Below the pieces are notes generated by a model. It saw nothing but the letters and a program-made list of their open reading frames with translations. It searched no databases and was not told where the DNA came from. A stretch of 64,000 nucleotides of DNA from Bryum argenteum (lineage: Eukaryota; Streptophyta; Bryopsida; Bryales; Bryaceae): positions 7,675,409 through 7,739,408 of the forward strand of contig CM073328.1 of the NCBI GenBank assembly GCA_037043015.1, in the 5' to 3' direction. A program made the position numbers and the translations under genes. This document shows, in pieces, positions 14,109-38,217 of the stretch. Each line of letters starts with the position of its first letter. Position 1 is the first letter of the stretch.

Positions 14109-14132
14109 GGCTCCCTCGTACACGAGGGAGCC
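14109..14132. promoter_or_regulatory. Hairpin palindrome in transposase intron (inner)
   Basis: Arms GGCTCCCTCGT and ACGAGGGAGCC surround an AC centre, within the transposase intron (14039-14238). The core CCTCGT-NN-ACGAGG is the motif clustered at 19.1-21.0 kb of the same element. Its counterpart in the outer copy is at 7045-7058, also in this intron. Confidence 0.6.
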
Positions 14133-16344
14133 TCCTAAATATAGATTTTTAAAAAAAATTTAAAAATTGAGTAAAAAAATTTACTTTTTTTGGAGTAGTA
14201 AAAGGCATAACTCATAGAAACACGTAAGGTTGAACTTACTAGCTCCATAAACCCCCCATTGGCGATATCGAAAATGCCGAATGCGAGCCAAAACCCCAAA
14301 TGTCTCACTCCATCCTCGGAGGCGGCGCGTGAAGACGTCCACCATGCTTTGATTCCCAAATAGCGTGTCTCGGCCTCTTCCATGGACGAGGCATTTTTAT
14401 ATTGAAGACACAAATGCTTGTGTTGGTCTTGTAGTTCATGGCGAATGTCTCGCTTGGTGTGTTTCTCAGCGATCGAGACCAATGGAAGAAGCACGTCCTC
14501 TCTTGTCCTTCCATGGGCACGGTAGGGTTGCGAGAACCGTATATGATCCGGACCGCATTCCAATTGGCTTGTGCACTATCGCCCATGAAACTTGAAACCG
14601 AGGCTTAGGGACCCCATTTCTTGACATCACATGGTTGATTCTTCCAAAAACAATTTGAGCTTCTCTATCCTCGGACATAAAATCACAACAAGCAATTGTA
14701 AGTACTCGTTGGTAACTGGAGTCGTACACGTGGCACGCCATGGTCGTCCAGTGGATAACACGTTTGACGTGATCAAACATCATCCAAGCATGCTCTAGGT
14801 CACCACTAGGTTGCATCCGCCGGACCAGGTCCACTCCACTAGCAGGGCCAACTTCTGACATCTTGAAAATGAAGACTTTGTCCAAGTCGTCTTTTTGCCC
14901 TGGAAACATGTTACGCTGAACAAAGGCCCAATTACTAAGCCCTCTGAGTTTGGTAATACCGTCCATGACTCCATAGCACCTTAGAGACCTGAACGTGTAG
15001 ACACGGTTTCTAATACTTGGAGAGTTTAGGTCTTTACAACTATCGAACACAGGCTCTAGTTGTTTCAAAGATAGGTGGGTATGAGGCTCGTCCTCTTGAC
15101 GTAAAAGGTAGTTTCCTAGAAGGTCTCTGCTGGCCTCCATAACAATCTTAGAAACAGGAGCCTGTGGATTGCGTTCGACATGTTCTTCAATCAACTCGTC
15201 AATCTTGCTCCGTGTACCTCTGTAGTCCCCAACCTTGATAGGGTGGTCGTGATTGCCGATATGAACGCACGCACGCTCTTGGTTTTCATCACCAAAAATA
15301 TAATAGATCTTAGCTTTACAAGTGGCAACGCAAATAGGAGGTTCCTTACAAATCCCGCAGACGATCGTGGATGCGGAAGGAGGTGGTCCACCAACTCCGA
15401 ATGGGTCTTTAGAGGATCCATCGAACTCAACTCGTTCACCTGCCGCACGCTCAGGTCTGCAAGAATGGACAATTCGATTGCGACCTGACATGGACATGAC
15501 CAACACAATTAGAAGATCCGAAAGTCAAGCTCATGGTGTTGGAGATGTTAGTGGTCATGGTTTTAGTCCATAAGTGTCCGTCGTAACGTTTATCCATTCC
15601 ATCCATGGATTTTGCATTTTTGTTAGCAGCAGATAGAAGAACGGGTGGAAGAATGAAGAGAATGTCACCATTGAAAGATGGTGGTAAACTAACTACACGG
15701 ACTGTCTGGATGTTAGCATAATCTAGTTTCTTCAAAGCATCGTCTTGCCACTGGGCATACTACCTAACTTGAGGAGGCAGGCGAGAATGTTTTTGGGTTT
15801 TGACGTTTGTGAGGAATGTTGTTGAGGGATAGGGGTAGACAATTGAGATGTAGTAGACGGGGATTGAAGCGGAAGAGGAGAACAATTACTTGGAACCGAA
15901 GTGTTGCGCTCGTCATCAGATGACTCAGTAAGGTCTATGCTAACACGTTCACATGGTTCGACCTTTATACGACGTAGAACGGGAGTGATCGTTGATGAGT
16001 AGAGGAACTACGGGGTCGATGGGGCGATTGAAGCACCATTATAGATTCTCGACAATCCGTATAGGCGGTACTTGCGGTATTAAGATCCCGACTTTGCTTC
16101 TCATTCACAAGCACTGGACTAGGTTCAACAACCATGGAATACATGACGTTCAAGGTGATAGGGTCTACAATGTCCTTCTCTAACCACAAAGACGACGAAT
16201 CGAACCCGAATCTAATTGATAACACTTGAGCGATTCACGCGAGCTACTCCTTGGGGGCCTCTTTGGTATGCGAGAGGAGGCGGAGCACCGGGAGAGAGAA
16301 TTTCGACAACGTTCGGACTAGTAAGCTCTGAAGACGAGGATGCC

Positions 16345-17143
16345 ATGATGATAGAACGAGGTACGACAATAGTAGAAAGGAGAATGGAAGTCTTTCTGCA
16401 GAATATATGTATTTTGAATAGTTATTACCTCTAACCCTAGATTAGTATAAATAAAACCATTTGTATACTCCACCTCCAAAGGCCGTGAGTAAGTTTGAAA
16501 GTTTGCTACATAACAAAAAGTAAGTCACATTGAGTTAGAAATAGCCTTATTTGGATTTTTGCAGATCACACAATGGTGTTATGTAAACGTGTAAAGGTGC
16601 GGCGGCCGTCATTGTCAGGTAGACGCGTAGATATTCTTAGTGCTTTAAGCGTAAGATAGAATTTAGAATCCTATGTTAAGCCATCCTATGTTAAGCCATT
16701 TGTATACTCCACCTGTAAAAGGGTGTGAGTAGGTTTAAAAGTTTGCTACATGACTAAAAGTAATTCACATTGAGTTAGAATTAGCCTTATTTGGTTTTTT
16801 GCAGATCAGACAATGGTGTTATGTAAACGTGTAAAGATGCGGCGACCGTCATTGTCAGGAAGACGCGTAGATATTCTTAGCGCTTTAAGCGTAAGATAGA
16901 ATTTATAATCCTATGTTAAGCCGGAAACATAGAGGATGTCAGATGTTCAAGATTGGAATGACGGGTGCGCCGGCTGTAGATCTATTTTATTATATTTTAA
17001 AATTGAATCTGAGTTCCGGGGACAAGGTATATAGTAAGAGTGGAGCAAGGATTCAAAATCATTTAATCTTGAGAGCTAAAGTAGTGGACATCTAGAGCTG
17101 TATTCTTGTTTTCTTGTGTGGTGTTCTCAGTTCTAGAGACTAC
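16345..17143. promoter_or_regulatory. Divergent promoter region of inner MULE
   Basis: Non-coding region between the transposase start (16344, minus) and the first plus-strand ORF (17144). It contains a 239-bp tandem duplication (separate entry) with the GCGGCCGTCATTGTCAG block shared with the outer promoter. An acceptor-like TTCTCAG lies just before the 17144 ATG. Confidence 0.45.
16457..16921 (+). repeat. 239-bp tandem duplication in the inner promoter
   Basis: Two units begin CCATTTGTATACTCCACCT at 16457 and 16696. They differ at only scattered bases. Each carries one GGCCGTCATTGTCAG-like (GACCGTC in the second) block and one CTTTAAGCGTAAGATAG. Confidence 0.8.
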
Positions 17144-17548
17144 ATGAAGGACATAGTTGAAATACCAGAGAGTAGTGCAGACATTCAACAGAAACGGAAG
17201 AAGAAGAGAGGAGGTTTGAAGTTTAGTGGTTCTAAACAGCGCAGGCGGATGGCGTTGAGGAGGAAAGAGTCAATGTCTCAATCCAAATGCGATGGATCAA
17301 GAGAGGAGCGCGAACTTGAAGGGAATGCGGAGCGGCCGGAGCCAACCCCATTCCAACTGAGGTGTATTAGACGAGCCACTAACTTAGAGAGTGTTTCAGA
17401 GGTCGATGAGTATGAAAAAGTAGAGGAAGATTGCGAGAACACTATAGACGAGGTCTTCTCTACTGCTTCAAAGTATTGCACTTCCCAGAGTGATTCTCGC
17501 CACGCCGAGAATGACGATGAAGACCAAGGAGTTGATTCGGATGAATTG
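17144..17548 (+). CDS. Small basic-acidic nuclear protein gene, inner copy (exon 1)
   Basis: The chosen ATG at 17144 gives MKDIVEIPES. A strongly basic motif follows (QKRKKKRGGLKFSGSKQRRR), then an acidic tail. A GTAATT donor at 17549 ends the exon in phase 0 after an acidic Asp/Glu run. The outer copy has the same motif (KKKRRGGIKFSGSKALRR) at about 26810 with a recognisable second exon. No such exon was found here, so this gene may be truncated. The KRKKKR stretch looks like a nuclear localisation signal. Function is unknown. It is the first gene rightward of the divergent promoter in both copies. Confidence 0.5.
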
Positions 17549-18000
17549 GTAATTTTTCAATTGCACATTAACTTCTCTATTTGCCTAATCTAAGTACTTG
17601 GATATTTGGATAAAAAAAGTTGATACTTTCTTTCCACATCCTTGTAGATTGTATAAAATCAATTTTGTTAAGTAAATAGACCATATTCTCCATCTCCCTG
17701 TAGATAAACCCTTATGGTTGCTTCATAAAAATCATTTTATCTGAATCTCCATAAAGGTAAGAGTCACAAATCCAACAAACAAGAAATGAATAATCTATAA
17801 TCTAGTGTATAAGTAGAGTGTAAAAGTAAACCGTTCCGCATTCTCTCAGGTGCCGAATAAATGAGTATAAAACAGCCTTCATACTCTTTTGGTAGTTCAC
17901 AATCATTTAAACCAAAATTCTGTCCAATGATCACAGAGACATCGATGCATACTGATACATCCATAGACTAGATTATGTACTTCAGTTTACTACATCCATA

Positions 18001-18227
18001 GACTACACTAAATTTGATAATTAGTGTTAGATTATTATAAGATTTGAAAATGCTATAAGTTTTTACTTTTGTTTCTAAAAATTTACCAAGATCATTGATT
18101 CTGATACTATTTAAGGACCCCCATCTTGGCCAATATAGTGGGTAAAATTATTGAACAACAATAAAAACTTATAACGTGTTTATGTAAATTAGTGAATCTA
18201 ACACTAATTACCAAACTTAGTGTAGTG
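18001..18227. mobile_element. MITE, about 227 bp with 34-bp inverted ends
   Basis: The left arm 18001-18034 (ACTACACTAAATTTGATAAT...) is inverted at 18194-18227, whose outer end reads CACTACACTAA. The ends look CACTA-like. No convincing 3-bp target duplication was seen. Confidence 0.6.
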
Positions 18228-18344
18228 ACTGGGGAGATGTCTCATCCACCTTGCGGGGCACCATCTAAAATGACATTCATTCATTGGTGTGAACTTGTTG
18301 GCAATCCCCTCCAGAATGAAATTAGCTGAATCCCAATACCATGC

Positions 18345-18660
18345 TCGATACTATGGCCGATACCATGCCAGATACGATGGTCCATACCATGGGCGATACC
18401 ATGCCCGATACCCTGCCAGATACGATGGTCCATACCATGGGCGATACCATGCCCGATACCCTGCCAGATACTAGGCTCAATACCATGCCAGGGCCATCGC
18501 GCCGAGTCTCCAGGCCATCGCGCCAGTCTGCAGGGCCATCGCGCCGAGTCTTCAGGGCCATCGCGCCAGTCTCCAGGGCCATCGCGCCGAGTCAGGGGCC
18601 ATCGCGCCGAGTCTCCAGGGCCATCGCGCCGAGTCATGGGCCATCCGCAGGGCCATCGCG
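18345..18660 (+). repeat. Two arrays of short tandem repeats
   Basis: 18345-18480 is made of GATACCATG(C/G)(C/G)(A/C)-like units. 18487-18660 is about nine units of a roughly 22-bp GGGCCATCGCGCCGAGTCTC sequence. ORFs on either strand here are repeat artefacts. Confidence 0.7.
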
Positions 18661-18732
18661 CCATTTTTTTTCTATGTTGTTTTGTGAAGCGAGGAGTTTT
18701 TTTCTCTTCCGTTCCAAGTTATCCTCACAGAA

Positions 18733-18975
18733 ATGGCTGGGCAGATTGGAGGAGAGATTCACGTTGGAGAAGGAACCCGAGTCGGAGGGGAGATGACGAT
18801 GTTGGAGCGCGGAAGGGAGGGTGCAGACGTCGACGTGGTGAGCATTCAGACAGAGGATTCGTTTTGGGAGCATCTAAGAACTTGTGGGAAAAGTTTTCCC
18901 ATTTCGATAGAGGTAGGAAGGGAGAGTTTCGTCGCCGAATTGGAGACTGAGACAGACACACAAGAAGAGGTAAGA
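18733..18975 (+). CDS. First coding exon of the long plus-strand gene, inner copy
   Basis: The ATG at 18733 is in good context (AAATGG) directly after an acceptor-like CAG. The exon encodes an 81-residue Gly/Glu-rich stretch (MAGQIGGEIHVGEG...) followed by VSIQTEDSFWEH and an acidic end, then a GTAAGA donor at 18976 in phase 0. The outer counterpart begins MANPGGEVPNPGG at 29195 and shares the D-V-S-I stretch. It can join in frame either to 21122 (short acidic protein) or to 21624 (ParB-methyltransferase exon), since both acceptors are phase 0. Confidence 0.5.
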
Positions 18976-19225
18976 TCGACCTGTTCAAACCCTAAACCAT
19001 TCTGATGAGCCTAAACCCTCATTAACTGCTCTTCGTGATAATGCTCGTCGTGGTCCTGTTCAATCCGAAGGCTCCCTCGTGTACGAGAATGTTCTCAGTT
19101 CTAGGTCCGAAGGCTCCCTCCCACCACCTCAAATATCTTCAATCTAGCCTGCTCTTCCCAGATTCGTAAGCGTAGTGTGATGAATCGCGGAACGAGTCAT
19201 ATGCACGCCCGGCGTACGATCGCTC

Positions 19226-19306
19226 TGATGGTGGCTCGTATCTCATCGCTCGTATCCCATCGCTCGTATCCCATCGCTCGTATCCCATCGCTCGTATCCC
19301 ATAGCC
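19226..19306 (+). repeat. 14-bp tandem repeat GCTCGTATCCCATC
   Basis: Five consecutive units, the first with a single change. They are followed by unrelated GC-rich sequence. Confidence 0.75.
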
Positions 19307-19399
19307 GGAGTCTCGCGTTGCTTGGCACATTCCGTGGCGAGTCTTACCTTGCGGCGGCGCCGGAGCGCGTTGATGCGGGTGAGCTCGGGCTCTGGTGCG

Positions 19400-20080
19400 C
19401 CCCAGACGTGGCATCGTAAGCTCGCGCTTTCGTCATCAGATGGCTCCCTCGTGTACGAGGAAGTGTAGGGATTCAGTGGCCAGGTGCGCCCCAGACGGTG
19501 GCATCGTAAGCTCGCGCTTTTGTCATCAGATGGCTCCCTCGTGTACGAGGAAGTGTAGGGATTCAGTGGCCAGGGCCGGATCGTGTTGATCCAGCCGTTC
19601 CGGATCCTCATGCTCGTGATGCTCGTGAGCAGGTCTTACCTTGCGAGCAGCTTCGGCGGCGCGTTCAGTGCAGGTGAGCCCGGGCTCTGGTGCGCCCCAG
19701 ACGGTGGCATCGTAAGCTCGTGCTTCTATTTCCGAAGGCTCCCTCGTGTACGAGGAAGTGTAGGGATTCAGTGGCCAGGGCCGGATCGTGTTGATCCAGC
19801 CGTTCCGGATCCTCATTCTCGTGATGCTCATGCTCGTGATACTCGTGATGCTCATGCTCGTGATACTCGTGATGCTGTCATCCTCAGCCGTTCCGGATCC
19901 TCATGCTCGTGATGCTCATGCTCGTGATGCTCATGCTCGTGATGCTGTCATCCTCATGTTCGAGTAGGTTTGTGAGCGGTGTGTGAGGTTTGTGAGTGCG
20001 GTGTGTGAGTGCGGGGGTGCCCTCGTGTACGAGGATGGCACCGGGATTCATTGTCCAGGGCCGGATCCTCATGCTCGTGA
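19400..20080 (+). repeat. Long tandem units with CTCGTGATG short repeats
   Basis: Units built of GCGCCCCAGACGGTGGCATC, a CCTCGTGTACGAGG palindrome and ATTCAGTGGCCAGG recur three to four times. 19800-19960 is a run of CTCATGCTCGTGATG-like units. The GATCCAGCCGTTCCGGATCC block recurs. Reverse ORFs here are repeat artefacts. Confidence 0.7.
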
Positions 20081-21121
20081 CGTTCGGGAGTCATGGCGGC
20101 CTCTGGCTCTGTTGGGTCTGGTGATGGCCGCGTTCTGGTTGGTGGTTCAAAAAATTGTGATTTTGGTGGTTCAAAATAAAAACCCAGAATTCATGAACTT
20201 GTACCTGTACCCTCGTACATGAGGGAGTGTTCGATGCTGGACACCGTCTGGACATATGTGGTAGTTTTGTCTGATCCATTCATGCTGACGGTATGAGGAT
20301 TTCAAGCGAATCGGGTACTGGTATTCGTGATGCTGTTCATCTCTTTGATCTTGTCACGCAGACATTAGAGTGGTCAAACCAAGGATTGGTCAAGTACACT
20401 TGAGAGCTGAAGTAGGGTGGTTCAACCAGTGTGACCTCGTATACGAGGTTGTAGTAATGGGAGTCATATTTGCTACTATGTTGTCTTCATAATGCTCTCA
20501 AAATCTATAATCTTCTAAGTTTAGATAATTCTTTTAATTCATTATGATTAAATTGACCATTCTTGCAAATTATTGTAGTTTTTTGTGAATTCAGGTTGTT
20601 TCCTCGTTTACGAGGTAAGGTACGCATTAAAATGTTTCTCTATTGAACCGATTTTTTGATTATAATACGTTTATGAAGAAGGATAGCAAATACAGTTTTG
20701 ATGGGTGCCTCGTGTACGAGGTTGGGTAAAGAATTCGGTTCTTGATCGTATTTTTGTCTATTCTTTTGATTACACTTTGGGCATGGGCATTGGGCTTAAG
20801 CACTCTCCACTTGTGTTAGGTATCCTCATATACGAGGGTGAGATCGACTCTTAACCAGTTAGATCAAAAGTTTGTGAATGTTGATAATCATTTTAAATAT
20901 ATGGGCTTTGGAATTGGGCATCACTTCATTTGTGGTAGGTATCCTCGTATACGAGGGTAGGTGTATACAAGAGAAAATTTCAGCCAACTTTGATCATTAT
21001 AATCTCACAACTGAAGAATAATCAACGGTTCATATTTGAGATGTGATTAGAATGTCTAATTCAATTTGCCAATGTGCACTCGTGATTGTGACTAAACCGC
21101 TATATTTGTTTTTGTGTGCAG

Positions 21122-21448
21122 GAGTTCTCTGCGGATAGCATGGAGCATGTCATTGAGTCTGACACTGATAGTAGTGATTTTGATGGAATGAGTCACGGTG
21201 TTCAAAATTGGATTGGAGACCATACCGTTGTCTTAGGTTTACCTGCCACGATCGTTCCCATGGCTGAGCCCTCTAATGGGGATTCTTTTCCCCGTTCCAA
21301 TGTTGTATCATCCAATATTGTTGACAAGGAGGCTCATGCTCTATTCATGAGAGAATGGCGACGTCATACACGTGAGAAGAGACTAGAAGCTCGAGATGCG
21401 GCCCGTTTAGCCCCTAGACGGTCTCCTAGGCTAGCAACTTTTACTTAA
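21122..21448 (+). CDS. Short acidic protein exon ending in RRSPRLA, inner copy
   Basis: A TGTGCAG acceptor precedes GAG at 21122, phase 0. The exon encodes a Glu/Asp/Ser-rich stretch (ADSMEHVIESDTDSSDFD) and a basic C-terminus (MREWRRHTREKRLEAR...PRRSPRLA), ending at a TAA at 21446-21448. The outer copy has the same arrangement at 32401-32709 (ESDSS... LRARKKQLRLEALERARLGP... RRSNRIAAKSN, stop). Retention of acidic-then-basic layout and stop in both copies suggests a real product. Function is unknown. Confidence 0.5.
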   Translation, partial: EFSADSMEHVIESDTDSSDFDGMSHGVQNWIGDHTVVLGLPATIVPMAEPSNGDSFPRSNVVSSNIVDKEAHALFMREWRRHTREKRLEARDAARLAPRRSPRLATFT

Positions 21449-21623
21449 CTTGATTCATGATTTGACTCTCCACATTGTATTGTCTTTGACAATACAATGA
21501 TTTATATTTTGTATTATCCATGGATGATAGTTTACTAATCATCATATTTTTATTGATATATATCTATTGACATTTGTTGTTTGCATAAGTTTAATTTAGT
21601 GTTTTACCCTTTCAATTATCCAG

Positions 21624-24600
21624 CCAAGAGATGGCGATGACGATAATGAGAATGGCGAGCATACTCCCTTGAGTATTCCGGAGACCCAACCCATGGAAGA
21701 GGATCGCAGTCTGCCGAACGTCCCGACACCATCCACTGGACAAGACATCCCCCCGCGCCATCACGTAAGTGACATTGAGAATGGGGACGGGCCACCGCTT
21801 ACTCCGGATGAAGGGGCCCAAGCACTGCTTCCTAGTGAGCATCTTGCTATTGTGCACGCAACGCACGCCCTTGGGCTTGCTTCACCGGAGAGAGAGCAAC
21901 AAATGGAGGGCCCGTCATCTCTTTCCGAGGATTCCGATGATGATGAGACCGCTAAACATCCTTCACATCTCAAGGATAAGGATATGAAGTTTAGCGAGCA
22001 CGAGATTCGAGTTTGCACCACGACGGACTCCGTTAAGGCCATCAAAGGGATTCTCAACAAACCGGAAGATAAGTCCCGGTTTCGAATTCCTTTATGTCGC
22101 CTTCAATCTTACCCGAAGGTTAGACCTGTTCTTGAAGCCGACGTGCAGAGGCTTCAAAATGAGTTTGCCCGAGGTTATAGGGAGGGTGATCGCGTCATGT
22201 ACGTCTCGTTATATGACGAGGATAGTCGGGATCTTCTTGTTTCCCCGGAGATTGTCAGCACTTGGGATGAACATTGGATGAATGAAAATAGACGATTCGA
22301 GGAAGACCTGTCTCGTGACGTCCACCTCCATCAATTTCAAGGCAAAATGTTTTTTGTCTATGAAGGGAATCATCGTTTGGCTGCATGGATGCGAGAGATT
22401 GCAGAGTTTCACCAAGAAGATCCTTCTTGGCACATTCGGGTTGACTGCATCGTGCTTCATGCACGGGGAAGGAATGGCGTTCTCGTCAATGCCATGGCTG
22501 ACGTCAATTGGTAAGTTGGTTGTCTTCCATGAAGTTCGATTTACATTTTTTTTCATTAACCTTAACTTCTTACATCCTCATGCATATGGTTTGAATTGTA
22601 GGTCGACCGAGAACGACTTCGTGAAGAGTAGTCTTCCAGCGAAGTTACAACGAATTCGGACGTTCGGATCCATGAAACTTGAGGCTTTCAGGGACTTGAT
22701 TTTGGAAGAGGCATATGTTTTTTGCCAAAAAGAGAAATCAAGGCGTACCACTTGGTATTCTCTGACAGTTGACGTATTCGTAGCATTCTTGTTCAAGGTA
22801 ATAATTTTAAGTATTGATCTTCCAAATACTGCTTATGACTATTGTCAATGTTATGTAATTTGTACTGTGTGATTTTCGTAATTCACAGAGAGAGGTTTCT
22901 CGGGCTCAAGACCTTGCTGCAAAGATTTACAAGGAGACCACTGCTAAAGAGAAGCAAACCGGACACGGGGTGTGGTTGGCTATGCATCATGCGCAACAGA
23001 AGACCATCAAAATCTTAAAGGGTCGAAATTTTGAGAAATTTATCGCGGTGGCTAATCCACAAAATGGCCCCAAGTTCTTCGACGAGGTACGTATAATATA
23101 TTATTGCTTTCTATTTGATTACCCGTAATATGATAATTGACGTGAGTTATGTCTTAATCAGATTACTACACATTACTCGACTTTTCCAGTACCCGAGTTG
23201 TCAATTGAGCGACTTCAAAAGATTGCTACATCTCATGTTGAGCCGGAATTCAAGGCAAAGTGGTTTGTCTTGGTGGAATAGCACGGATAATGAAAGACGA
23301 CTTGTGTGTTTTCCTTGGATCGTCCAATGAAAGAGAAAACCTTTGACTTTGGATTGAAGGCTTCTTTTTGGGCACAAGTATGCATGCTCTCTGATCAAAC
23401 TTATATTTTGGGTTGTTCGAATCTCTGAAACTATACCATGCTTTAATTCTCATTTACGTGATTCACAATCGTTTTTGCAGTTGGAGTTCGAGCTCGTACA
23501 AGAGTTCAATAAGATCCTCGAAAATCACGCTATGCCTATTGTGTGGAAAGAGGACGTTCTCCCTCCATCCGCTTACGTAGAGCATTGGAGGGTGCGCCTT
23601 TGGGATCACGCGTACCTTGCATATCTCGCACCAACAGCAGGCCCAAAGTTTGTCAAAGGAACCGATTTGAAGAAGTTCGAGAATGGCACGTTGATCATCA
23701 AACTCTTGGTCTATAGGTATTTTATGCTCCCCGCTTACTTATTTATTTGCTTTCTACTTGGTAATAATTGGTTTTCTTAACCATTTTGTTTTTCAGGTAC
23801 TTTACCCGCGAGTTGATGACCAAAGGTGCTCTTCGTTTGTCTTCTCTTCCCGAGTTTCTGAAGGATGCTCGTGATAAAGACTCCAAGCATAACGCATTCA
23901 CTCCTCGCCAAGATGAGAGGTTCTCAACAGTAGCCCTCAAGACTGGAGCTTGGTTTTTGGACTGCTCGGCCCCGTTCGTTCCTACGGAGGAGCAAGATCT
24001 TGCAGTGTCAATGGGCGTTGTCTCTGCACCTCAAGCTCGTATCGACATTGAAGACGACAATGATGCAGGAGACTTCGTCGACGATATGCCTAACCGAGCT
24101 CCTAAAGTTGGGAAGAAACGTGCTCAAGTGCCAAAGAAGATCACGACTGCGACCATGAACGCATCAATGTCTCAAGGTGGTCCTTCGTCACAAGCTGAAT
24201 CTGGTCCTTCCCTTACTCAGGCAAGTGAACGTCTTGGTGACGTTGATGGCTTGCCATCCCACGCCACAAAATTCAATCGGCTTGTTCGCGGTCGCGATGT
24301 GGTGCGTCCTGACTTGTCTGAGAAAGTAATTGCTAACGTATCACCCTTGCCCATATTCCTCGAGCACGGAGACATGGGTGAGGTTTTGAACTTGAGCGAC
24401 ACTAATTCCCGCATGGAACCTCAGGCTGTACGCATTATGCAGCATATTCGTAAGGTAAATCCATATTCTCATAATTTCATATTGTTTTCAATGTCCCTCT
24501 TTAATCGTGGTGATTTTATGACACTAATAATTGTTATACTTTATCGTCCAGGTTGGGAAAGGTCGTGATAAGCCCATTCAAAACATGACTATGAAGCCCA

Positions 24601-25862
24601 AACATCCCGGCATTGACCTAATCATCGCTGATGCACCTGAAAACCTTACGGTGCCTCTCATCGAACCACACGTTGTACCCATGTGGAACATGCGAGATGA
24701 CGATTATTTCGATAACGTGTTCGCATTTGCTGATGCGAATCTAACGGATGATGGGGTTATACTTCTCATGCACCCAAGGGATAGGGCCATTGAACGAGAG
24801 TTGGACGAGTGCACGTATAGTTACCGAGTTCAAGATTGTTCGTGGATGTGGGGTTATAACCCACTTCGTTTGACGTCCGCTTGTACTCTGCGGCAGAACG
24901 GTAAATCTCTGACGTTTATATTTCTATATTCTTTTCTTCGTTCAATTTGATAGATTGTAATGTGGTTTTCTAATCGCCCGATTGGATTGTGTAGACTCAG
25001 AACTTCCACATCAAGGTCTTTGCAAGAAAGGATGCAAAGTTTGAAATAAAGAGATCGAATGGTCTGGGGCGACTCGACATTCTCCCGGACGACAATGACA
25101 ACTTAACCAACTTCACCCACGCCGAAGACCGGATGTTACGCCCCGATGGGAAACCGTGGCGAGGCGCTCGGGAGAAGCATCCAGATTTCATCCAGTGTTT
25201 TATCGAGTGCTTGACCGACGAGAACGACATTGTGTTTGATTGGAGTGTTTCTACGGTATGTGGTTTATGTCAAGATTGAGGATAAATGTGATCAAGTGAT
25301 TTATACTAACACTTCCTCGAATTGTTTTTGTACGGGAGGAGCTTCGTTATCGCATGCAAACGAACGAATCGTTTTCTCATCGGCTTGGAGCGAGATGAGG
25401 AAATCTTCGCGACGATCTTGAAACCGATGTTAGAGCAATCGCAAAGTCGGCTTGATGCAAGCTCATCCAGAGATCTTACGAGAGGATGTGGAGCCTAGGA
25501 GGAAGAAACCTCGCAAGTACATGGGTGCGTTATATCGCGCTCTTTGTATTTTAACTTTTTATGACGCTTTTGTCAACGGGAATTTCTAAACTTCACTTTG
25601 GAATCTAGTCACACAGGATTGACTCAAGATTATCACTCCATTCGGATCTCATTCGAGTCCTCCATCGCCATTTGCGCTTTCCTCGTATCTTTGAGCGACT
25701 TGCGAAAAGCGGTGGGTGGCGGCTCCATCTCCTATTCGTGCTCAAGCCCCGTGACCAAAGTTTCCTCAGAGTGTATTGCGCTTCATAGATTTTGAAGTCG
25801 ACCAATGTGATGAAGAATTTGACTCGCCCCACGATAGCGACCATTCTCTTGATTACTATTGA
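21624..25862 (+). pseudogene. ParB-like/amino-methyltransferase-like gene, inner copy
   Basis: At least nine exons with GT-AG borders conserved against the outer copy: 21624-22510, 22602-22797, 22889-23086, 23162-23377, 23481-23716, 23797-24454, 24552-24900, 24995-25255, about 25339-25524, and a last exon ending at TGA 25862. Exon 1 carries a ParB/Srx-type domain: IPLCRLQSYPKVRPVLEADV, FFVYEGNHRLAAWM (G-N-H-R-x-x-A box), RVDCIVL. Exons 7-9 carry a permuted N4/N6 DNA-methyltransferase-like fold. First comes motif IV (DLIIADAPENL, where DPPY is expected) with FAFADANLTDDGVILLMHP; then GKPWRGAREKHPDF...DIVFDWSVSTG (motif I, FxGxG expected); then CKRTNRFLIGLERDEEIF. This is beta-class order. The middle (24.0-24.3 kb) is acidic and basic low complexity (GKKRAQVPKK). 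Frameshifts occur in exon 4 (two), near the exon 7/8 junction and in exon 9, so it is probably inactive. The assignment is by motif only. Confidence 0.62.
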
Positions 25863-26489
25863 ACTTAGCCTCCTATAGCTTTTGGCAACAATATTCGATA
25901 TTTTGAATTCGTATGTTTTCAACTCATTTATGAGTTACTATTACTTATTTATACATCTTGGCGTATTGGTTATATATTAAACCGTTTTAATTCTAATTAC
26001 CATGTCTAAACCGCTCTAATATTTTTTTGATCACGCCAATTCAAATTTGTTGTTTGAGTGAGAATCGGTGTATATAAAACTCAGTTTGTATTAAGAATGT
26101 TTATGAGGTAATTGGAATTTTGAAACCATAATATGTAAATTGAACAATTTTTTTCTTAAAAAAAAAAAAATCTATTTTTAGGGGTTCCCTCGTGTACGAG
26201 GAAGCCCCCTACTTCTGACAATTATGTCACCTTCTCTCCCCCTTCACGACTTTTGCTTGAGCGAGAGAAACCCTAAACCACCTAAACCCCTAAAGTGATG
26301 ACGTCTGTGATGACGTCAGCCCTAACCTATTGTATAGTGTACCCAAAAACCTAAACAAATGTGACTTAAGTCCACGGGTTTGGGAGCATTTACTTCTAAA
26401 CCCTATACCAATATTTCAGTTTTATTTACCCTAAACCGTGGTAATAGGATACTTAATATTCGTAAACTCAGGGGGATTTTTTTGGAAAT
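25863..26489. other. Right subterminal region of inner MULE
   Basis: No gene. It holds an isolated CCTCGTGTACGAGG palindrome (26188-26201), TGATGACGTC twice near 26297-26320 (palindromic TGACGTCA core, bZIP-type), GAAACCCTAAACC and the inverted CCGTGG motif near 26436. The outer copy also has TGATGACGTCAGCCCTAA near its right end (about 37809). Confidence 0.5.
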
Positions 26490-26533
26490 TTTCTCACCGC
26501 TCACCGCTCACCGCTCACGCCTGTGCATTCCCC
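26490..26533 (-). repeat. Right terminal region of inner MULE
   Basis: CTCACCGCTCACCGCTCACG... ending GCATTCCCC is the inverse of the left end. GTACTGTATA follows at 26534-26543. Confidence 0.75.
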
Positions 26534-26543
26534 GTACTGTATA
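26534..26543. repeat. Target site duplication, right (inner MULE)
   Basis: GTACTGTATA, identical to 9714-9723. Outer-element sequence resumes immediately after. Confidence 0.9.
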
Positions 26544-26748
26544 GGTGTGCTGAAGTGGCGATGAGTGTTATTGAGATACGCGTTTAGAGTAGTTAGGGTT
26601 AGAAGAACGGCGCATTCAAAGAGTATACAGTCATTGGGTTAGAAGAGATAATCCTCTTTGTTTTTAGTTGTATGATATAGTTTTATTCACAGAGTCACCC
26701 AGTTCAGAATATCGTGTCTTAAGTGGCAGGAGTTTGTAATTGTTCCCA
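26544..26748. promoter_or_regulatory. Divergent promoter region of outer MULE (right half)
   Basis: Before insertion of the inner element this was contiguous with 9429-9713. It leads directly to the ATG of the first plus-strand gene. No certain TATA box was assigned. Confidence 0.35.
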
Positions 26749-27551
26749 ATGGAGGGTGACAGTAGTCAAGTAGAGAGAGGGAAGGATGGCGGACGCGGAA
26801 AGAAGAAGAGAAGAGGTGGCATAAAGTTTTCTGGATCGAAAGCTTTGCGAAGGAGTGCGATGCGAAAGAAAGATGCGCCGGATGTGTCTGATGACGACCT
26901 CATGCAAGATACGGAAGAAGCGATTGATGAGTTCCTCCCCGGGAGGTTTAGAAAGAATGTGAAGATGCGAATGTTGAACTTGGACGCCATTACTGAGAAT
27001 ACTGGCTGTGAAGACAAAGGAGAACGGATTGACTGGAACGAAGGAGTGGAGGAGCTAGAGTCTAGTAAGCAATCGCTGAGCAGGAGTGGATCTCAAGAAT
27101 TTGGACGTCAGAGCATGGAGAAAGAGTTCGAAAAAGTAGTAAGTTTAAATGGTTGTTTGCGTTTGCAGTATGTGTAAAAATTGATGTGATATACAGTCTC
27201 AAATGTTTTGATGGATTTGTTTAGTGGGATGATATGGAGACATTCGTTGATGACATCTTTGGTGTTCATCCTCAGCAATTTGAAGCAGTAGCACATGGAA
27301 CAACCCAAGATTGTGAAGTGGAAGAACAGAAAGCGATGGATGGCGACAATGAAACAGACGAAGTGGAATTAGATCTGGAACGATCACCGGTACAAATCCC
27401 CAACTTTGGAGAGGAGGTTGATCTAGGGTGTCGTCCTGAGTTTATGATTTATGAACACCCTAATGGCTTCATTCAATGCTGGTTGATAGATAATAATGAG
27501 TTCCCATGGGCTGACGATGAGGACGTGAGCGAAGCGGTTCCTGATAGTTAA
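26749..27551 (+). CDS. Small basic-acidic nuclear protein gene, outer copy (two exons)
   Basis: Exon 1 is 26749-27138 and exon 2 27225-27551, joined in phase 0 across an 86-bp GT-AG intron (GTAAGT donor, TTGTTTAG acceptor). The ATG at 26749 gives MEGDSSQVERG (an in-frame ATG at 26740 is also possible). There is a basic motif KKKRRGGIKFSGSKALRRSA near the N-terminus, then an acidic second half. Exon 2 is acidic with YEHPNGFIQCWLIDNNEFPW near the end. The frame is intact, unlike the element's other genes. About 239 residues. The basic motif and the position next to the divergent promoter are shared with the inner copy at 17144. A nuclear regulatory role is guessed from the basic signal. No known domain was recognised. 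Confidence 0.6.
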
Positions 27552-29194
27552 TGTGTCACTAGTATGTAGACACAATGAAGCCTTTGATTAAACGTGAACT
27601 AAAACAGAAAGCGGATGTACTATTAGAAACGTCAGAATTCAATTCATAAAGATCATGTTCACAAACTTATCACTAAACTATGACTAGCATGTATTTTGTG
27701 TTCTTGTTCATGAATGTAACAAACAAAAATTCCTTTCTCTGAACTTTTATGATCCTATGAATTGCGTAATGATTTGTACTCATGTTCTTTGAACACACTC
27801 AAAAAAACCACGCCTTGCAAAAAACATTGGTAGTACAGATGGTCATAAGAATTTCATGCTCATAAAATTCCACATATCTGAAAGACCTCTATGCGATTGC
27901 ACACCTGAAAATGGAACGCCATCGGTAAGCTTCGGGCATTATAATTAATTCCAGTAAATAATATAAATAAAATTAAAGGTATCTTATCTATAATTTATGG
28001 GACTTCACTTCAAACACTCATGACACATAGGATCATCATAATTATCTTGAATTTTAAGGAAGTCTATAGAGAAAGCAAAATGTTCACTGAATTGGGTTAT
28101 GTAATGATTTCTTTATTAATTGGGGTATGTAATGCTATGAGTGAACTAAAATAGTTGTTACAAAACTAAAGCAGGATTTATTTGGGTGCAAAATTTCGGA
28201 AATAATGTCATTGAATAATTTAAACCGTTATCGATTAATGTATTCCAAATTGCTCACTAAACATTCTCGTTATATTATATTAGACCGTGCATGGTTTTTT
28301 ACAATGGAAGGTTAATGGAGTTTAGGAGAATGAAAACGATGTAAGGAACCCAATGCTCAGTATTGGTTTCCGGTTGGTGTGCAGATCACTGTATTTTAGT
28401 CGTACGAGCGTTTTTCGGTGCCCTCAGAGGGGCTGCGTAATGAGCCCCCCAATTTTTTTATGTATAGGCTGTAAATGCCTAGGAGTAGCATTCCATGGGT
28501 AATTTGGGGTCGCTGACCTTAAATTTAAATTGGAAATCATCGAAATCGGTCACCAGGGGGTCGAAATGGTGAATTCCACAAATTTTGATTAAAAATCTCA
28601 TTGCCTGATGGGCTCTTCGAAAAACGCTCGTAGGAGTGCACAACAGGGATCCCTGGTGTGCCGCCCCAGTCAAGCTCTTACTGGCCGCACCGAGGCTTGC
28701 AATCTGCTGCAACCTCAATATGATCGGCAGCATGCACTGAGAGCGTCACACAGCCCCCCCTCCACACTCTCTTAGCGTCTGTGTAGAACAGGCCGTCATG
28801 GCAGCGATAAATCATGCATTGGCGTCACCGCGACCCCCCCCACCACACTGTCTTAGTGGCTGAGTAGAAATGGCCGTCCCGGAGAAGATCCACATGGACT
28901 GTGGGTAGGCAGCGCAGAGATGGTCGGCGCATCAGAGCGCTCATCCTGCCGCACTTTTCGCGGACTCGGCGAGCCGCTAAGTTCGATGACTCGGCAGGGG
29001 CGCCGAACCTTTTCCCGGCTTTCAGCACCAACTTGCTTCTTTCAGTTCACGAGGTCGCCGTTTCTGAAGATTCCCTTCGGGACTGCGATGACCGGTGCTT
29101 GAGTGAATCCTGTTGTGAAGTGGTAGAGAGCTTGCAGTGAATCGAGAGAACTGAGAGCATCTTTTGAATCTGTTAGATGCAGATAGTTCCAGCA
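27552..29194. other. Intergenic region of outer MULE
   Basis: 27552-28400 is AT-rich with no gene recognised. A MITE-like element lies at 28403-28632. 28750-28900 contains two diverged units of a CCCCCC(T)CCACACT-TCTTAGYG sequence. An acceptor-like TTCCAG lies just before the 29195 ATG. Confidence 0.4.
28403..28632. mobile_element. MITE-like element with TACGAGCGTTTTTCG ends
   Basis: TACGAGCGTTTTTCG at 28403-28417 is inverted at 28618-28632. The internal sequence (GAGCCCCCCAATTTTTTTATG... AAATGCCTAGGAGTAG) is shared with the MITE at 57022-57221, whose inverted ends are different. Confidence 0.6.
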
Positions 29195-29449
29195 ATGGCG
29201 AATCCTGGAGGGGAGGTTCCGAATCCTGGAGGGGAGGTTCCGAATCCTGGAGGGGAGGTTCCGAATCCTGGAAGGGAGGTTCCGAATCCTGGAAGGGAGG
29301 TTCCGACGCCGCAGGAATCAAGCGACGATGTAAGCATCTTCACTCCCCCGACCATCTTCCTCATCTCTGGGGGGAGACAGTTGCAGTGCAAATTGAAAGG
29401 GAAAAGGGTGGTGATGAAGAAAGATATGAACCAGGAAGTCCACAGCAGG
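29195..29449 (+). CDS. First coding exon of the long plus-strand gene, outer copy
   Basis: The ATG at 29195 follows an acceptor-like TTCCAG, as in the inner copy. It encodes MANPGGEVPNPGGEV..., five heptads from a 21-bp tandem repeat (29202-29306), then DDVSIFTPPTIF and a basic stretch. A GTACGC donor follows at 29450. In the ATG frame the exon ends out of phase with the next exon at 32401. The neighbouring frame would be in phase, so a one-base shift within the exon is likely. Expansion of the 21-bp repeat distinguishes it from the inner exon at 18733. Confidence 0.4.
29202..29306 (+). repeat. 21-bp tandem repeat, five units
   Basis: Units of GAATCCTGGAGGGGAGGTTC+C (three) and a variant with GGAAGGG (two). 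Being a multiple of three it keeps frame and encodes a Gly-Gly-Glu-Val-Pro-Asn-Pro heptad. Confidence 0.85.
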
Positions 29450-29629
29450 TACGCTTTCACTCTCGCAAAGTAGACGTTCCCTCATTCACATTCCACGTTC
29501 GAAATACTGAACTGGAACTCTCGATTTCGGGGAGGCTCTCCTTCATGACATTTCTGTGCTTGGCATTTCGTGATTATGTGCTTGGGATTTCTGTGCTTGG
29601 CATTCCGTTTTTGCAGAGCCTTTGAAGCA

Positions 29630-31950
29630 GGCTCGTTGACGAGGCCTTCCTTCTAGCATCGGAAATGCCCAGAAGTTGAACTGGTTCTGAACTTGACTCG
29701 CGATATAGCGCTGTTTATGTAGTACTTCGATGCAGGTTCGTTGACGAGGCTTTCGGTCTTGCCTCGGAATTGCCCAATAGTTGAACTCCTTCAATGAACT
29801 TGACCCGCGATATAGCGCCGTTTATGTAGGCTTCGATGCAGGCTCGTTGACGAGGCCTTCGGTCTAGCCTTTGAAATGCTTGAAAGCTGAACTTATCAGA
29901 ACTGGTGCTCCAATATTGTGCCGTTTATGCAGAGCCATCAAGCCAAGTTCGTTGACGAAGCAACCGGATTGGCCTCCGAACTGCTCCATGCCGACTTGTT
30001 TTGAGTATTTGAGCCGTCAATGTTGTGCACTCTCGTTGACAAAGCCTCCCGTCTAGCCTACGAAATGCTTGAAAGCTGAACTGGTTCAGAACCGAACATG
30101 CGTGTAGTGCCGATTTTGCAGAGCCTTTGGTGCAGGCTCGTTGACGAGGCCTTCCGTCTAGCATCGGAAATTCCCCAAAAGTTGAATTGGTTCTGAACTT
30201 GACTCGCGATAGAATGCCGTTTATGTAGTACTTTGATGCAGGTTCGTTGACGAGCCTCCAAAACTTCGTAGCCTAGACCGAAGCCTCCGAAATGTGTGAA
30301 ACTGAACTGATCAGAACTGGTGCTCCGATATTGTGCCGTTTATGCAAGCCATCAAGCCAAGTTCATTGACGAAGCAACCGGATTGGCCTCCGAACTGCTC
30401 CATGCCGAATTGTTTTGAGTATTTGAGCCGTCAATGTTGTGCACTCTCGTTGACGAAGCCTCCGGTCTAGCTCACGAAATGCTTGAAAGCTGAACTGGTT
30501 CAGAACCGAACCTGCGTGTAGTGCCGATTTTGCAGAGCCTTTGGTGCAGGCTCGTTGACGAGGCCTTCCGTCTAGCATCGGAAATGCCCAGAAGTTGAAC
30601 TGGTTCTGAACTTGACTCGCGATATAGCGCCGTTTATTTAGTACTTTGATGCAGGTTCGTTGACGAAGCTTTCGGTCTAGCCTCGGAATTGCCCAATAGT
30701 TGAACTCCTTCAATGAACTTGACCCGCGATATCGTGCCGTTTATGTAGGCTTCGATGCAGGTTCGTTGACGAGGCCTTCGGTCTAGCCTCCGAAATGCTT
30801 GAAAGCTGAACTTATCAGAACTGGTGCTCCGATATTGTGCCGTTTATGCAGAGCCATCAAGCCAAGTTCGTTGACGAAGCAACCGGATTGGCCTCCGAAC
30901 TGCTCCATGCCGAATTGTTTTGAGTATTTGAGCCGTCAATGTTGTGCACTCTCGTTGACAAAGCCTCCCGTCTAGCCTACGAAATGCTTGAAAGCTGAAC
31001 TGGTTCAGAACCGAACATGCGTGTAGTGCCGATTTTGCAGAGCCTTTGGTGCAGGCTCGTTGACGAGGCCTTCCGTCTAGCATCGGAAATTCCCCAAAAG
31101 TTGAATTGGTTCTGAACTTGACTCGCGATAGAATGCCGTTTATGTAGTACTTTGATGCAGGTTCGTTGACGAGCCTCCAAAACTTCGTAGCCTAGACCGA
31201 AGCCTCCGAAATGTGTGAAAGCTGAACTGATCAGACTGGTGCTCCGATATTGTGCCGTTTATGCAAGCCATCAGTGCCAGTTCGTTGACGAAGCAACCGG
31301 ATTGGCCTCCGAATTGCTCCATGCCGAAGTTGATTTGAGATTTTTAGCCGTCGATGATGTGCCGTCAATTTGCACTCTCGTTGACGAAGCCTTCGGTCTA
31401 GGCTACGAAGTTCTCGGAAGTTGAACTGGCCCTGAATATTGAGTGCCTTCCTTCCCAGTTTCGTCAACGAGAGTGCAAACTTTATTTAGAGCCTTCGGCC
31501 TAGCCCCAAATGCTCGGAAGTTGAGTGCTATGATTGCTATGAGAATTCCCAGTTTCGTCAACGAGAAAGCAAACTGTATTTTCGAAAAATGAGAGTAGGA
31601 CCAGAAGTCCGGTTACCTCTACCAAATCGTTAGCTTCGTTGACGAAGCCTTGTGACTTGCCTCCGAAATGCTCGAAAGTTGAACTGATACTAAACTTGTA
31701 CTAATTTTTTAAGGCGCCAACTTCTTTCTTGATTGAGCACCTGGAGTTTATGAATTTTAAAATATTTGTTTAAGTGGCGTCAATACTAGATTCGTCGACG
31801 AAGTCCTCGGTTTGGCCTCCGAAATGCTCGAATTGGCCCTGAATGATGAGTGCCTTATTCCCTGTTTCGTCAACGAGAGTACAAATATTTTTGAACAAAA
31901 ATAGTGAGACTAGGACATGCTTCGCTAAGTTGTCAGTTTCGTAGACGAAT
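29630..31950. repeat. Satellite-like array of TCGT-TG-ACGA palindromes, outer MULE intron
   Basis: About 24 sites of YTCGTTGACGAR (or the inverse, TCGTCAACGA) are spaced mostly 85-117 bp apart, in units containing CGGTCTAGCCT, GAAATGCTTGAAAGCTGAACT and TGCCGTTTATG. Sites start at about 29631, 29738, 29841, 29948, 30033, 30137, 30243, 30360, 30447, 30550, 30656, 30762, 30867, 30952, 31056, 31162, 31279, 31377, 31463, 31553, 31635, 31791, 31866 and 31936. A block of about 919 bp is duplicated in tandem (spacing pattern of 29948-30360 repeats at 30867-31279). The last units decay while the palindrome core remains. The array fills the intron before the exon at 32401, the same place as the inner copy's cluster. 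Reverse-strand ORFs here are artefacts. Confidence 0.85.
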
Positions 31951-32400: not shown

Positions 32401-32709
32401 GAATCCATTGATTTCGAGCCGGAGGACTTGGAGTCTGAGAGCGATAGTAGTTTTTCTACCATGCAAGCTATAGTCTTAGACGTAGCTGATAATCGTTCTT
32501 TGGTTCGGGCACTTCCAGCTGCTACCTCAGATACTAACGCTGAATGTATTCAATCACCATTGACGGAGCCAGGGACCATGGTTGATGAAGAACAACCTAC
32601 TTATATGCAGGGTTTGAGGGCACGTAAGAAGCAATTGCGCTTGGAAGCTCTTGAACGTGCCAGACTTGGCCCGCGGCGTTCTAATAGAATTGCTGCAAAG
32701 TCTAACTAG
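32401..32709 (+). CDS. Short acidic protein exon ending in RRSNRIAAKSN, outer copy
   Basis: Phase-0 acceptor (GATGTAG). An acidic stretch (FEPEDLESESDSS) is followed by a basic C-terminus (LRARKKQLRLEALERARLG) and stop. It is the counterpart of 21122-21448 in the inner copy, with the stop at the same place. The frame is intact here although neighbouring exons are damaged. Function is unknown. Confidence 0.5.
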   Translation, partial: ESIDFEPEDLESESDSSFSTMQAIVLDVADNRSLVRALPAATSDTNAECIQSPLTEPGTMVDEEQPTYMQGLRARKKQLRLEALERARLGPRRSNRIAAKSN

Positions 32710-32867
32710 ATTTATATTGTTTATCTTCATGTCAATGTTCTGACTTGATACAATACGAAGGGTTCATGACACGGTTCATGTAGTTTTTAATTTCACTTTT
32801 TGCACTACCCTATTTCTATATGATTTGTCATTGTTGTTTACTAAATCTCATCGGTTCTCTTAAGCAG

Positions 32868-35800
32868 ACCCCACCCGAAGAAATCATTCCGGATACACAG
32901 CCTTCGCGCGATATTGATGATGTCGACGAAGGGGATACGATTTTGGTTGGAGAGGCTCCAATTGTTGGATCTGCCGGAGAACCTCCTTTACCCCCTGATA
33001 TTGTGCAGATTGGGGCTGTTGATATGCCAAGTCATTTGGCTGAGATGGATCCCATGTGGAGTGCCGATGAGTTACGAGCACAACACAAGGGAAACTCCAT
33101 CAACACCATATCGAGGTTGAGAATAAAACCTGTTGAGAAATCTCGACTACGTATTTCCCTCTGTCGCCTCTCTTGTTACCCCAAGGTTCGTCCCATTATA
33201 GAAACAGATGTTTGCAAGTTGGCAAACGAGTTTGTCAAAGGCTACCGAGAAGGCGACCGCGTTCTATATGTTTCTCCCTTCAGCAAGAACGGGAAGCAGC
33301 GGTTGGTGAAGGACGATGATGCGGTTTGGAATAACCCTCATTGGAAAGCGGCCAATGATCGGTTCGAAATCACGTTGCAAGCCGACCCGGACCTTTGCCA
33401 ATTCAGTGGAAAATACTTCTACGTCTATGAGGGGAATCATCGCGTCACTGCTTGGATGCGATACATTGAGCAAATGCGCCGAGATGATCCGGATTGGTAT
33501 TTCTTTGTCGACTGCATTGTCATTGACGGACGTGCAGAATACAAAGTACTAATCGACGCGATGAACGATATCAACTGGTGAGTTTGATTTCGTATAATAT
33601 TCTTTCAATTTTCTCTTTTTCACACACTCTGGACATCTATTGACTCACTTTCTGAACAGGTCTACAGAGCATGATCATGTCGAAGATAGCCTGCCATCGA
33701 GGCTGCAACGCATGCGCAAGTTTGGCAAGATGCCACTTGAAGAATGGAAACTCCTCATCTCTACTGAGGACTGGAAGTACTGTTACACTGCAAAAGATAG
33801 GCTGAGGCCATCTTGGTACTTTGTGACTAAAGACGTCTTCATCAAGTTCCTCTACGCGGTGCGTCTTTAACCATATCTTCTGCATTGATTAATTTCCAAC
33901 TAGGCTTTTTTAGTTCGCTAACATGCGTTCTGTGATCGTCCAGAGGCAATGTGCTAAGGTTGCCGACGAAGCCCAAGCCCAGTACTACGAAGACACTCCC
34001 GTAGACGGGAGGACAACGCAATGGACGAGGCTCTCAAGGCTGAGATTAAACGAATCCGACAAAAGGATTTCGACAAGATGCTTGCCATTGCTAATCCAGA
34101 GTTAGGAAAAGCATTTGAACAAGAGGTATGTATTCGCTCAACGGTTTTCAGTGTTTACTATTGATCCCTTGTCGACACCCCTCTTTTTAAATTCTAAATC
34201 TCTTTAATGTATTGCGATGTAGATCAATCTTCATTACAGCCATCTCAAGGATCCCGAGATGTCTCTGGAGCGCCTCCAGAAGGTCGCCACCACCAACGTT
34301 TCGAAGGAAGTTAAAACAATGTGGCTTCGTTGGTGGAACAACACTCCGGCGTTCTGACGTAGTGTTCGCTTTCCGGACCCAGTTGAGATGAAGGGTAGGG
34401 TGTTGGAGGCATGGCTTGCTCGTGCAGCACTTTGGTCGCAGGTACTTAATATCATGTCCATCAGATGCGTTACAACATTATGTCCATACCAGTTACACTA
34501 AACGTTACTAACTTCAAATTGTTGACTTCAGTTATCGACGTATCTGAAGGAGGAGGTGGACAAGTTCTTCAAACAAGAGAATCCCCACATCCCGAACCTT
34601 GACGCCGTTTTGATGCCCGTAGAGTACGTCGAAAAATGGCGTCTTCTATTATGGGATAAGGCTTTTGATGCTTACGTAGGGCCCAAAGCCAGCCCTAAGT
34701 TCATTAAAGGCTCCCACATCGACAAGATTGGCGGTGGAGCTCAAACTAAGAAGAGACTGATGTTGAGGTTCGAGCACACCGATGCATATTGTCTTGTTTC
34801 TTAACTTCAAATTCATCCAAATATTTATACTCCTTGTGATTGTACTCCTGGCAGATATCTCAAACAGGAGCTCGTTGCTAAGGGTGGTCTCGATACTCTG
34901 GGCATTCTATCTGAGTTTCAAGTCCCGTACTTGAAGAAAAAACCGATGTCGGTTTTTCCAATGATCAGAGGCAGCGCTTCAAGATGGCTTTATTGTTGAC
35001 TGGTGGTTGGTTTCTGGAGTCTCAAACCCACCATGTTCACAAGGAAGAGAAGCATCTTGTGCAGTTTGCGGAATCGGTCGATGCTGCTCCTGTGGCTCTA
35101 CAAATTGATGATGATGACGATGATTTCTGCATGCTTCCAGGCGCTCCACCTCCACCCCCCCCCCCCCCGACTGCACCAAAAGGTAGAGATAATGCAGGTG
35201 GCAATCGCAAACGTCGCAAAAAAGAGCCTACCCCTGAGCCAGAGGAGGAGGACCAAGATGAGGAGGTGGAGGAGCACGAAGAGAATGACGACGACGAGGA
35301 CGGAGAGCATGGAGATGCTCCCCTTCCCGATGAGCTTGCAGGTGGTGCATATTCAAATGTATGTACATTACCTTCTCCTAATATACTTTGTCATTTATCT
35401 AACATGTGCGCTTGTATCTACATTGCAGTTCAAAGAGAAGTTGATATGACACAGGCTTCCCAAGGGACGGTTGTCAACAACGGTGGACATGGTGTAAGAG
35501 GTCCAGCTGCCTCAAAGAGGCAAGCAGTTCTGCTAGGAAGGCATGCTCGAGGGTGGACACAAGCATCTGATGGTGGGGTTTCGAATGTGGGATCTACTCC
35601 TCCATCGTCGTCAGCCCCTCGTGAATCCCCTCTGTCACATGGACCGACGCAATCTAATAGACCCATGCGTCCCATAGTCATTCCCAAACATGTGGGTAGT
35701 ACTTCCTCTTCTCCTACAACTGTGACGCTCCCTATGTTCCTTGAGAAAGGAGACACGGCGGCCTTGGTTGAGCAGTCTACAAAGGGTGCAGGCTGGGTAG

Positions 35801-38162: not shown

Positions 38163-38217
38163 GTCACCGCTCTACGCTCACCGCCCACCGCTCTACGCTC
38201 ACGCCTCTACATTCCCC
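38163..38217 (-). repeat. Right terminal region of outer MULE
   Basis: GTCACCGCTCTACGCTCACC... ending ACATTCCCC is the inverse of the left end at 124-180. Confidence 0.75.

Follow-up and report, generated by a model that had tools for sequence, protein, structure and literature searches.

In the VANDAL elements of Arabidopsis, which belong to the Mutator-like elements (MULEs), the anti-silencing protein VANC binds a motif and removes DNA methylation (PMC5735166, PMC10398659). VANC possesses DUF1985 and/or DUF287 domains and diverges faster than VANA, and the motifs differ between related families, such as YAGTATTAY for VANC21 and AGTTGTCC/AGTTGTAC for VANC6 (PMC5735166). Here, we describe two nested MULE-like elements of Bryum argenteum in a stretch of 64,000 nucleotides (contig CM073328.1; C8:7675409-7739408), referred to below as the window. 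In both, the left part holds a transposase gene on the minus strand and the right part a gene of several exons on the plus strand (the plus-strand gene), and a first-pass annotation had pointed to clustered palindromes in each that share their arms and differ in their centres. Across the genome, such elements form three clades that have the arms TCGT..ACGA in common, with central bases that are GT/AT in one clade, TG in another, and CC in the third. On the surveyed contig 1 (C1), site type tracks element clade, and the sites are non-coding and mostly clustered upstream of exon B, the most conserved exon frame of the plus-strand gene.

VANC and its VANDAL elements are the closest known system, which our elements resemble in design. 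Both systems are MULE-type elements in which divergence is faster in the accessory protein than in the transposase, and in both, short family-specific motifs, often in tandem, lie in the element's own non-coding DNA. The sites here differ from the VANDAL motifs in that each is a palindrome containing CpGs, with arms that stay constant and a two-base centre that varies. The accessory protein differs as well, having a methyltransferase-like domain and no VANC domain match. En/Spm, a CACTA element, is a further parallel, as its TnpA binds many short subterminal sites in its own element and is linked to promoter demethylation; here, too, there are many short sites within the element, but they are mostly internal and the element is MULE-like. 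Uptake of a DNA methyltransferase gene by a transposon is also known from the retrotransposons of dinoflagellates and charophytes, which carry cytosine-5 methyltransferases able to methylate de novo (PMC5890265). In contrast to these, the present case involves a MULE-like element and a beta-class (N6/N4-type) domain in which the DPPY motif is altered in every readable copy. Literature searches, which covered few subscription papers, found no description of such an element.

Palindromes of the nested elements

The inner element and the palindromes of both elements are placed in the window as follows.

7047..7056: TG-centred palindrome of the outer element, lying between exon frames of the transposase
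9726..26534: MULE-like inner element of 16.8 kb, its nested 2.4-kb insert counted in, with an 11-bp target duplication and heptamer-rich short ends
14116..14125: palindrome, AC centre, between inner transposase exon frames
19077..20954: inner palindrome cluster, consensus GnnnCCTCGT-NN-ACGAGG, centres GT, AT, and TT
26190..26199: GT-centred palindrome close to the inner element's right end, at a distance of about 335 bp
29633..31948: array of outer palindromes (YTCGT-TG-ACGAR), most of it within tandem repeats of 105 and 414 bp

Exact matches to TCGTNNACGA number 35 in the window against 0.67 expected, and none of 100 shuffles reached 35. The inner element accounts for 11 (14116, nine at 19077-20945, and 26190), with centres GT in seven, AT in two, AC in one, and TT in one. 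The outer element has 22 (7047 and 21 at 29633-31939), with centres TG in 17, CA in three, CG in one, and AG in one. The remaining two lie in coding frames, at 7387 (GG centre) and 24075 (CG centre). The first-pass annotation had counted 13 inner sites and about 25 outer ones. Both figures are reproduced when one-mismatch sites are added, namely those at 20213 and 20826 in the inner element and three TG sites at 30033, 30363, and 30952 in the outer element. However, a centre it had read as TA is AT, and it had overlooked the site near the right end at 26190.

Exact TG/CA sites were absent from the inner element and exact GT/AC/AT/TT sites from the outer element; the two nested copies do have different centres. 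The same annotation had noticed neither type outside its own copy. It had also placed one site per copy in the transposase intron, in agreement with the positions of 14116 and 7047 between transposase exon frames. Its placement of the cluster in an equivalent large intron of the plus-strand gene is likely, as the cluster is situated between a probable 5' exon (frame 17096-17593, with a weak outer homologue) and the exon that follows.

In each of the 13 inner sites, position -6 is G, and the core is preceded by CC and followed by G. These sites are spread over 9 dissimilar flank contexts, so tandem copying alone does not account for them; the 22 outer sites occupy 8 contexts. The arms are conserved although their CpGs should decay. 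For the four inner cluster sites within reach of the 1.5-kb flanks, each aligned in about 13 of 22 copies, arms had 4 mismatches in 420 positions, compared with 114/3570 in flanks and 39/376 in CpG elsewhere (Fisher p = 0.006 and 1e-9). For seven outer sites, each aligned in about two of 27 copies, the corresponding values were 5/107, 127/751, and 65/251 (p = 5e-4 and 8e-7). Since the copies are related, these p values are to be taken as guides. The isolated sites also keep their places: in six of seven inner-type contig-1 copies, 472-484 bp separate the transposase exon match from the site between exon frames (473 bp in the window), and the right-end GT site lies 4581-4621 bp from exon B in five of the six contig-1 copies measured (4590 bp in the window; 4203 bp in the sixth).

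Centres and clades across the genome

The 259-Mb genome has 15 matches to the ARF activation domain, at about eight places, as befits a land plant; 14 control genomes had none. In this genome, exon-B matches numbered at least 133 with the inner query, 145 with the outer query, and 150 with a third-clade query (L066). The loci scored were 130 of 1147, 144 of 1202, and 150 of 1212 candidates, respectively, which makes these copy numbers lower bounds. They fall into three clades, which are inner-like, outer-like (48% identical to inner), and a third, absent from the window, that shares about 60% identity with outer and 50% with inner and uses the third centre, CC. Within 1.5-kb flanks of 30 inner-type loci (L005-L034, including the window's own), the centres were AT, GT/AC, and TT/AA, apart from a single CG and a single GC. 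The 30 outer-type loci (L035-L064, again including the window's) had mainly TG/CA, with a few CG, CC, AG, AA, TA, and CT, and two loci had no site.

Genome-wide word counts, proposed with the original observation as a check on it, came out in its favour, as the family words exceed their reversed controls. CTCGTGTACGAG occurs 263 times compared with 43 for the control, TCGTTGACGA 1202 times compared with 553, and CCTCGTNNACGAGG at 341 sites compared with 14. TTCGT-CC-ACGAA, which one third-clade locus (L069) carries three times, occurs 424 times compared with 41. We then related sites to exon-B open reading frames (ORFs) of the three types within 6 kb, using the first 100 places listed per word, all of them on contig 1 for the GT, TG, and CC words. 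Sites near inner/outer/third ORFs numbered 63/1/0 for CTCGTGTACGAG (GT), 1/48/0 for TCGTTGACGA (TG), and 0/1/66 for TTCGTCCACGAA (CC; 0/1/45 with an earlier, shorter third-clade gene list), where chance would give 0.3 to 2.0 per cell. In this comparison, GT and TG test a prediction, and CC is a fitted result that was tested on other copies. All but one (65) of these 66 CC sites are upstream of exon B. A control centre, TC (TCGTTCACGA), gave 0/2/2 for the 93 of 100 listed sites that are on contig 1, formed no cluster, and is rarer genome-wide than its reversed control (488 compared with 882). Neither equal density outside the elements nor free mixing of centres, the outcomes named beforehand as refuting, was observed.

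Some further words and arrays were considered. The CT-centred TCGTCTACGA shows no excess as a general family word (256 compared with 786 reversed). One CT array (G000:C1:15532967-15534770) does lie upstream of a third-type ORF; its five TCGT-CT-ACGA sites recur every 448-450 bp, as a private variant of the centre that was amplified in tandem. GT-type clusters for which the list has no exon-B ORF up to 6 kb away lie on G000:C1 at 3.73, 20.91, 28.84, and 36.33 Mb and are possibly decayed or unscored elements; a transposase match is present at 3.736 Mb. Upstream of exon B, four third-clade loci (L066-L069) have quite different repeat arrays in the equivalent place, and of the four, only L069 has TCGT-NN-ACGA, in tandem repeats with units of about 67-68 bp. 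The direct word ACGA-GG-ACGA of L066 was considered as a fourth address and is not claimed, as nearly all of its 24 matches are in three clusters. An ACGA half-site common to all clades was also set aside as not general; it is enriched in inner, outer, and L066, weakly in L069, and not clearly in L067 or L068.

The plus-strand gene and its protein

The genes of the two elements are as follows.

10517..12921: foreign insert in the inner transposase gene, not present in copies L070 and L074
12922..16421, minus strand: inner transposase gene, multi-exon, with a C-terminal piece at 10166-10516
17096..17593, plus strand: probable 5' exon frame of the inner plus-strand gene, with a weak homologue in the outer element at 26821-27054 (E 8e-4)
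21122..25859, plus strand: inner plus-strand gene, with exon-by-exon homology to the outer element
21600..22511, plus strand: exon B of the inner plus-strand gene, its most conserved exon frame, with an EGNHR motif
24552..25500, plus strand: beta-class DNA-methyltransferase-like C-terminal region of the inner gene, DAPEN replacing DPPY
32401..37208, plus strand: outer plus-strand gene, with exon B at 32784-33578 and methyltransferase-like exons at about 35902-36750 (motif DVPEN)

Exon B is under purifying selection in two clades. Mean nonsynonymous and synonymous divergences (dN and dS) were 0.021 and 0.443 in the outer clade (28 pairs) and 0.062 and 1.284, the latter near saturation, in the third clade (10 pairs), with a ratio of mean dN to mean dS of about 0.05 in both. 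Between inner and outer, exon B is 48% identical compared with 71% for the main transposase exon. The inner gene in the window has at least two probable frame lesions and this copy looks decayed; many relatives keep open exon-B frames.

The C-terminal region resembles a beta-class DNA methyltransferase in several searches. Pfam N6_N4_Mtase (PF01555) was matched under the cut-off by the inner (E 0.0031) and outer (E 3.4e-4) copies, PHROG methyltransferases were matched at 9e-6 and 2e-4 by inner and down to 1.7e-5 by outer, and a PDB search with inner gave DpnA at E 0.013. Searches with the inner copy used a guessed exon junction; the outer copy needs no guess. Among 224 phage records matched by tblastn, all 15 of the matches listed are annotated methyltransferases, at weak E values of 0.07-0.9. 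An hhalign comparison of three element sequences with three phage enzymes gave 96% and E 3.7e-9 over 59 C-terminal columns; swap controls for this comparison were negative. Single exons of the region, searched alone, gave no methyltransferase match.

The permuted beta-class motif order (IV before I) is present, with motif IV placed from phrog_67 and by eye. The catalytic (D/N/S)PP(Y/F/W) is not, as all six readable loci (window inner and outer, element T, L066, L093, and L094) have D[AV]PEN; of two other loci, L092 is frameshifted there and L095 has no match to that exon. The glycine loop is S-x-STG, and the acidic residue after it is retained. These features suggest that the C-terminus is a binding-competent, probably non-catalytic methyltransferase, and the gene plausibly encodes a DNA-associated protein. 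DUF1985 and DUF287 gave no Pfam match at E up to 10, where PF01555 was the only match (spliced inner protein and outer C-terminal part).

Phage fusions of ParB and a DNA methylase, ParB-methylase being mentioned in PMC5512222, also have the beta-class methyltransferase at the C-terminus; one phage example (L079) matches Pfam ParB_N and N6_N4_Mtase. GNHR of exon B is positioned like GHxR of ParB, but the relation suspected from it is not significant (hhalign probability 0.8%, E 0.067, aligned at GNHR/GHxR). None of 22 exon-B members had a ParB match in Pfam, a PDB profile search gave no significant ParB match, and a viral-contig search with exon B confirmed nothing.

As regards the elements themselves, the target duplications are 11 bp for inner (TACTGTATAGG, at 9715-9725 and 26535-26545) and 10 bp for a third-clade element, T (C1:23257500-23272700), within the MULE range of about 9-11 bp. 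The right end of inner matches three other copies and the left end matches one, L070. The outer element encloses the inner one; the same heptamer repeats put its right end near 38.2 kb, and its left end was not found. The inner transposase ends in a SWIM-like CxC...CxH (Pfam SWIM E 0.074, under the cut-off), and a MULE domain was not found in the transposase exon pieces searched. Element T has CC sites and the plus-strand gene, and no transposase exon was detected in it; some other third-type ORFs have a transposase match within about 8 kb (e.g., C1:11626849 and 11634951). Where the transposase of T would lie (L076:4317-4715, minus strand), there is a frame that resembles the cysteine-rich ADD zinc finger of ATRX/DNMT3 (E 0.011 and 0.016 in Pfam, under cut-offs); it may be a piece of a host gene that was captured.

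Related inserts in opposite orientation apparently interrupt both transposase genes (window 1940-6945 and 10517-12921), as if a single element family targets this gene. They form inverted pairs of 71-99% complementarity, with one short pair at 100%, and the bounds of the outer insert are judged from these pairs only. At the right end of the outer element, window 38134-42651 is a 1505-codon open frame that by eye resembles a gypsy-type polyprotein.

What the palindromes may be for

Our preferred reading, for which we see the chances as evenly balanced, is that the palindromes are cognate binding sites of a DNA-associated protein encoded by the plus-strand gene of their own element family. By analogy with VANC, we infer both binding and an anti-silencing role for this protein. 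It would bind as a (pseudo)dimer via the palindrome arms, with the two-base centre supplying the family address, and its occupancy would, like that of VANC in Arabidopsis VANDAL, hold the non-coding DNA of the element free of methylation and open to expression. A family could then move to a new private address if its centre underwent a single-base change and tandem duplication.

Several observations weigh against this proposal. Seven of 30 inner-type loci have no exact site in the flanks, and among third-type ORFs examined on contig 1, 16 of 34 have at least one exact CC site within 6 kb and 18 have none. Conversely, 36 GT, 51 TG, and 33 CC sites of the 100 listed for each have no listed ORF within 6 kb. 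Two third-clade loci, L066 and L067, have exon B 97% identical, yet their arrays are visibly different, although CACGA words are repeated in each. Genome-wide, a 13-mer taken from the L066 array forms three clusters and one stray site and is not beside all close relatives. One third-type ORF has the contig-1 array of five CT sites in place of CC sites. An early indication that CC sites follow the gene's strand (43/45) weakened to only 50/66 with the longer gene list. The words compared were not of equal length and had unlike flanks (GT has C..G, CC has T..A, and TG has none), and the choice of the CC word was made on a third-type array whose own three sites are counted among the 66. In the inner clade, exon-B dN/dS is 0.24-0.91 (21 pairs). 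Lastly, the clade correlation cannot separate the transposase from the plus-strand protein, because the two genes are linked. The earlier suggestion that the sites bind a dimeric protein of the element, with specificity that diverged between copies, is partly supported. Centres stay separate between element types, and a third clade with its own centre strengthens it, but site type tracks the linked transposase as well as the plus-strand protein, and part of the third clade has other arrays. Because the third clade is not clean in these respects, divergence in specificity is best stated by clade.

An unlikely alternative is that the element transposase binds the palindromes as recognition or regulatory sites and the plus-strand protein has another role. 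One site between transposase exons and one near the right end would suit it, as would the fact that transposase clades differ as well (67-75% identity for most non-inner matches). However, over 5 kb separate the main inner cluster from each end of the element, and this cluster adjoins the other gene. The plus-strand protein is favoured as the partner because element T keeps CC sites and this gene without a detectable transposase exon, though a transposase could act in trans.

It is also conceivable, at a distinctly low probability, that host transcription factors or chromatin proteins bind the sites as an element enhancer or promoter, with centres that differ according to a founder array fixed in each family. 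The location upstream of exon B, probably in an early intron, and the tandem nature of the outer array fit such an origin; the upkeep of the 13 inner sites in 9 contexts, the partition of three centres by clade with constant arms, and the unused TC centre do not. Neutral tandem amplification of lineage-specific sequence, with the clade correlation due to descent only, would likewise account for the tandem outer and L069 arrays and the differing arrays of L066 and L067. We consider it very improbable given the same arms in three clades despite about 48-60% exon-B identity, the dispersed inner sites in varied contexts, the isolated sites at fixed places far from the array, and the fewer mismatches in the arms.

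If the plus-strand protein is the partner of the palindromes, they would form a lock-and-key system private to each family, with which it recognizes copies of itself, and a natural series of protein-site pairs in one genome, with constant arms, only two central bases changing, and more than 100 scored accessory-gene relatives. It would become directly testable how the anti-silencing factor of a selfish element comes to use a new address. More tentatively, these elements may represent a radiation of plant DNA transposons in which a methyltransferase-derived protein with an altered catalytic motif became a sequence-specific self-recognition and anti-silencing factor with a switchable two-base spacer address, independently of VANC. 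This would bear on the question of repeated origins of VANC-like self-recognition in proteins that are not related, and would mean that a bacterial-type methyltransferase fold was kept under selection after its catalytic motif had changed.

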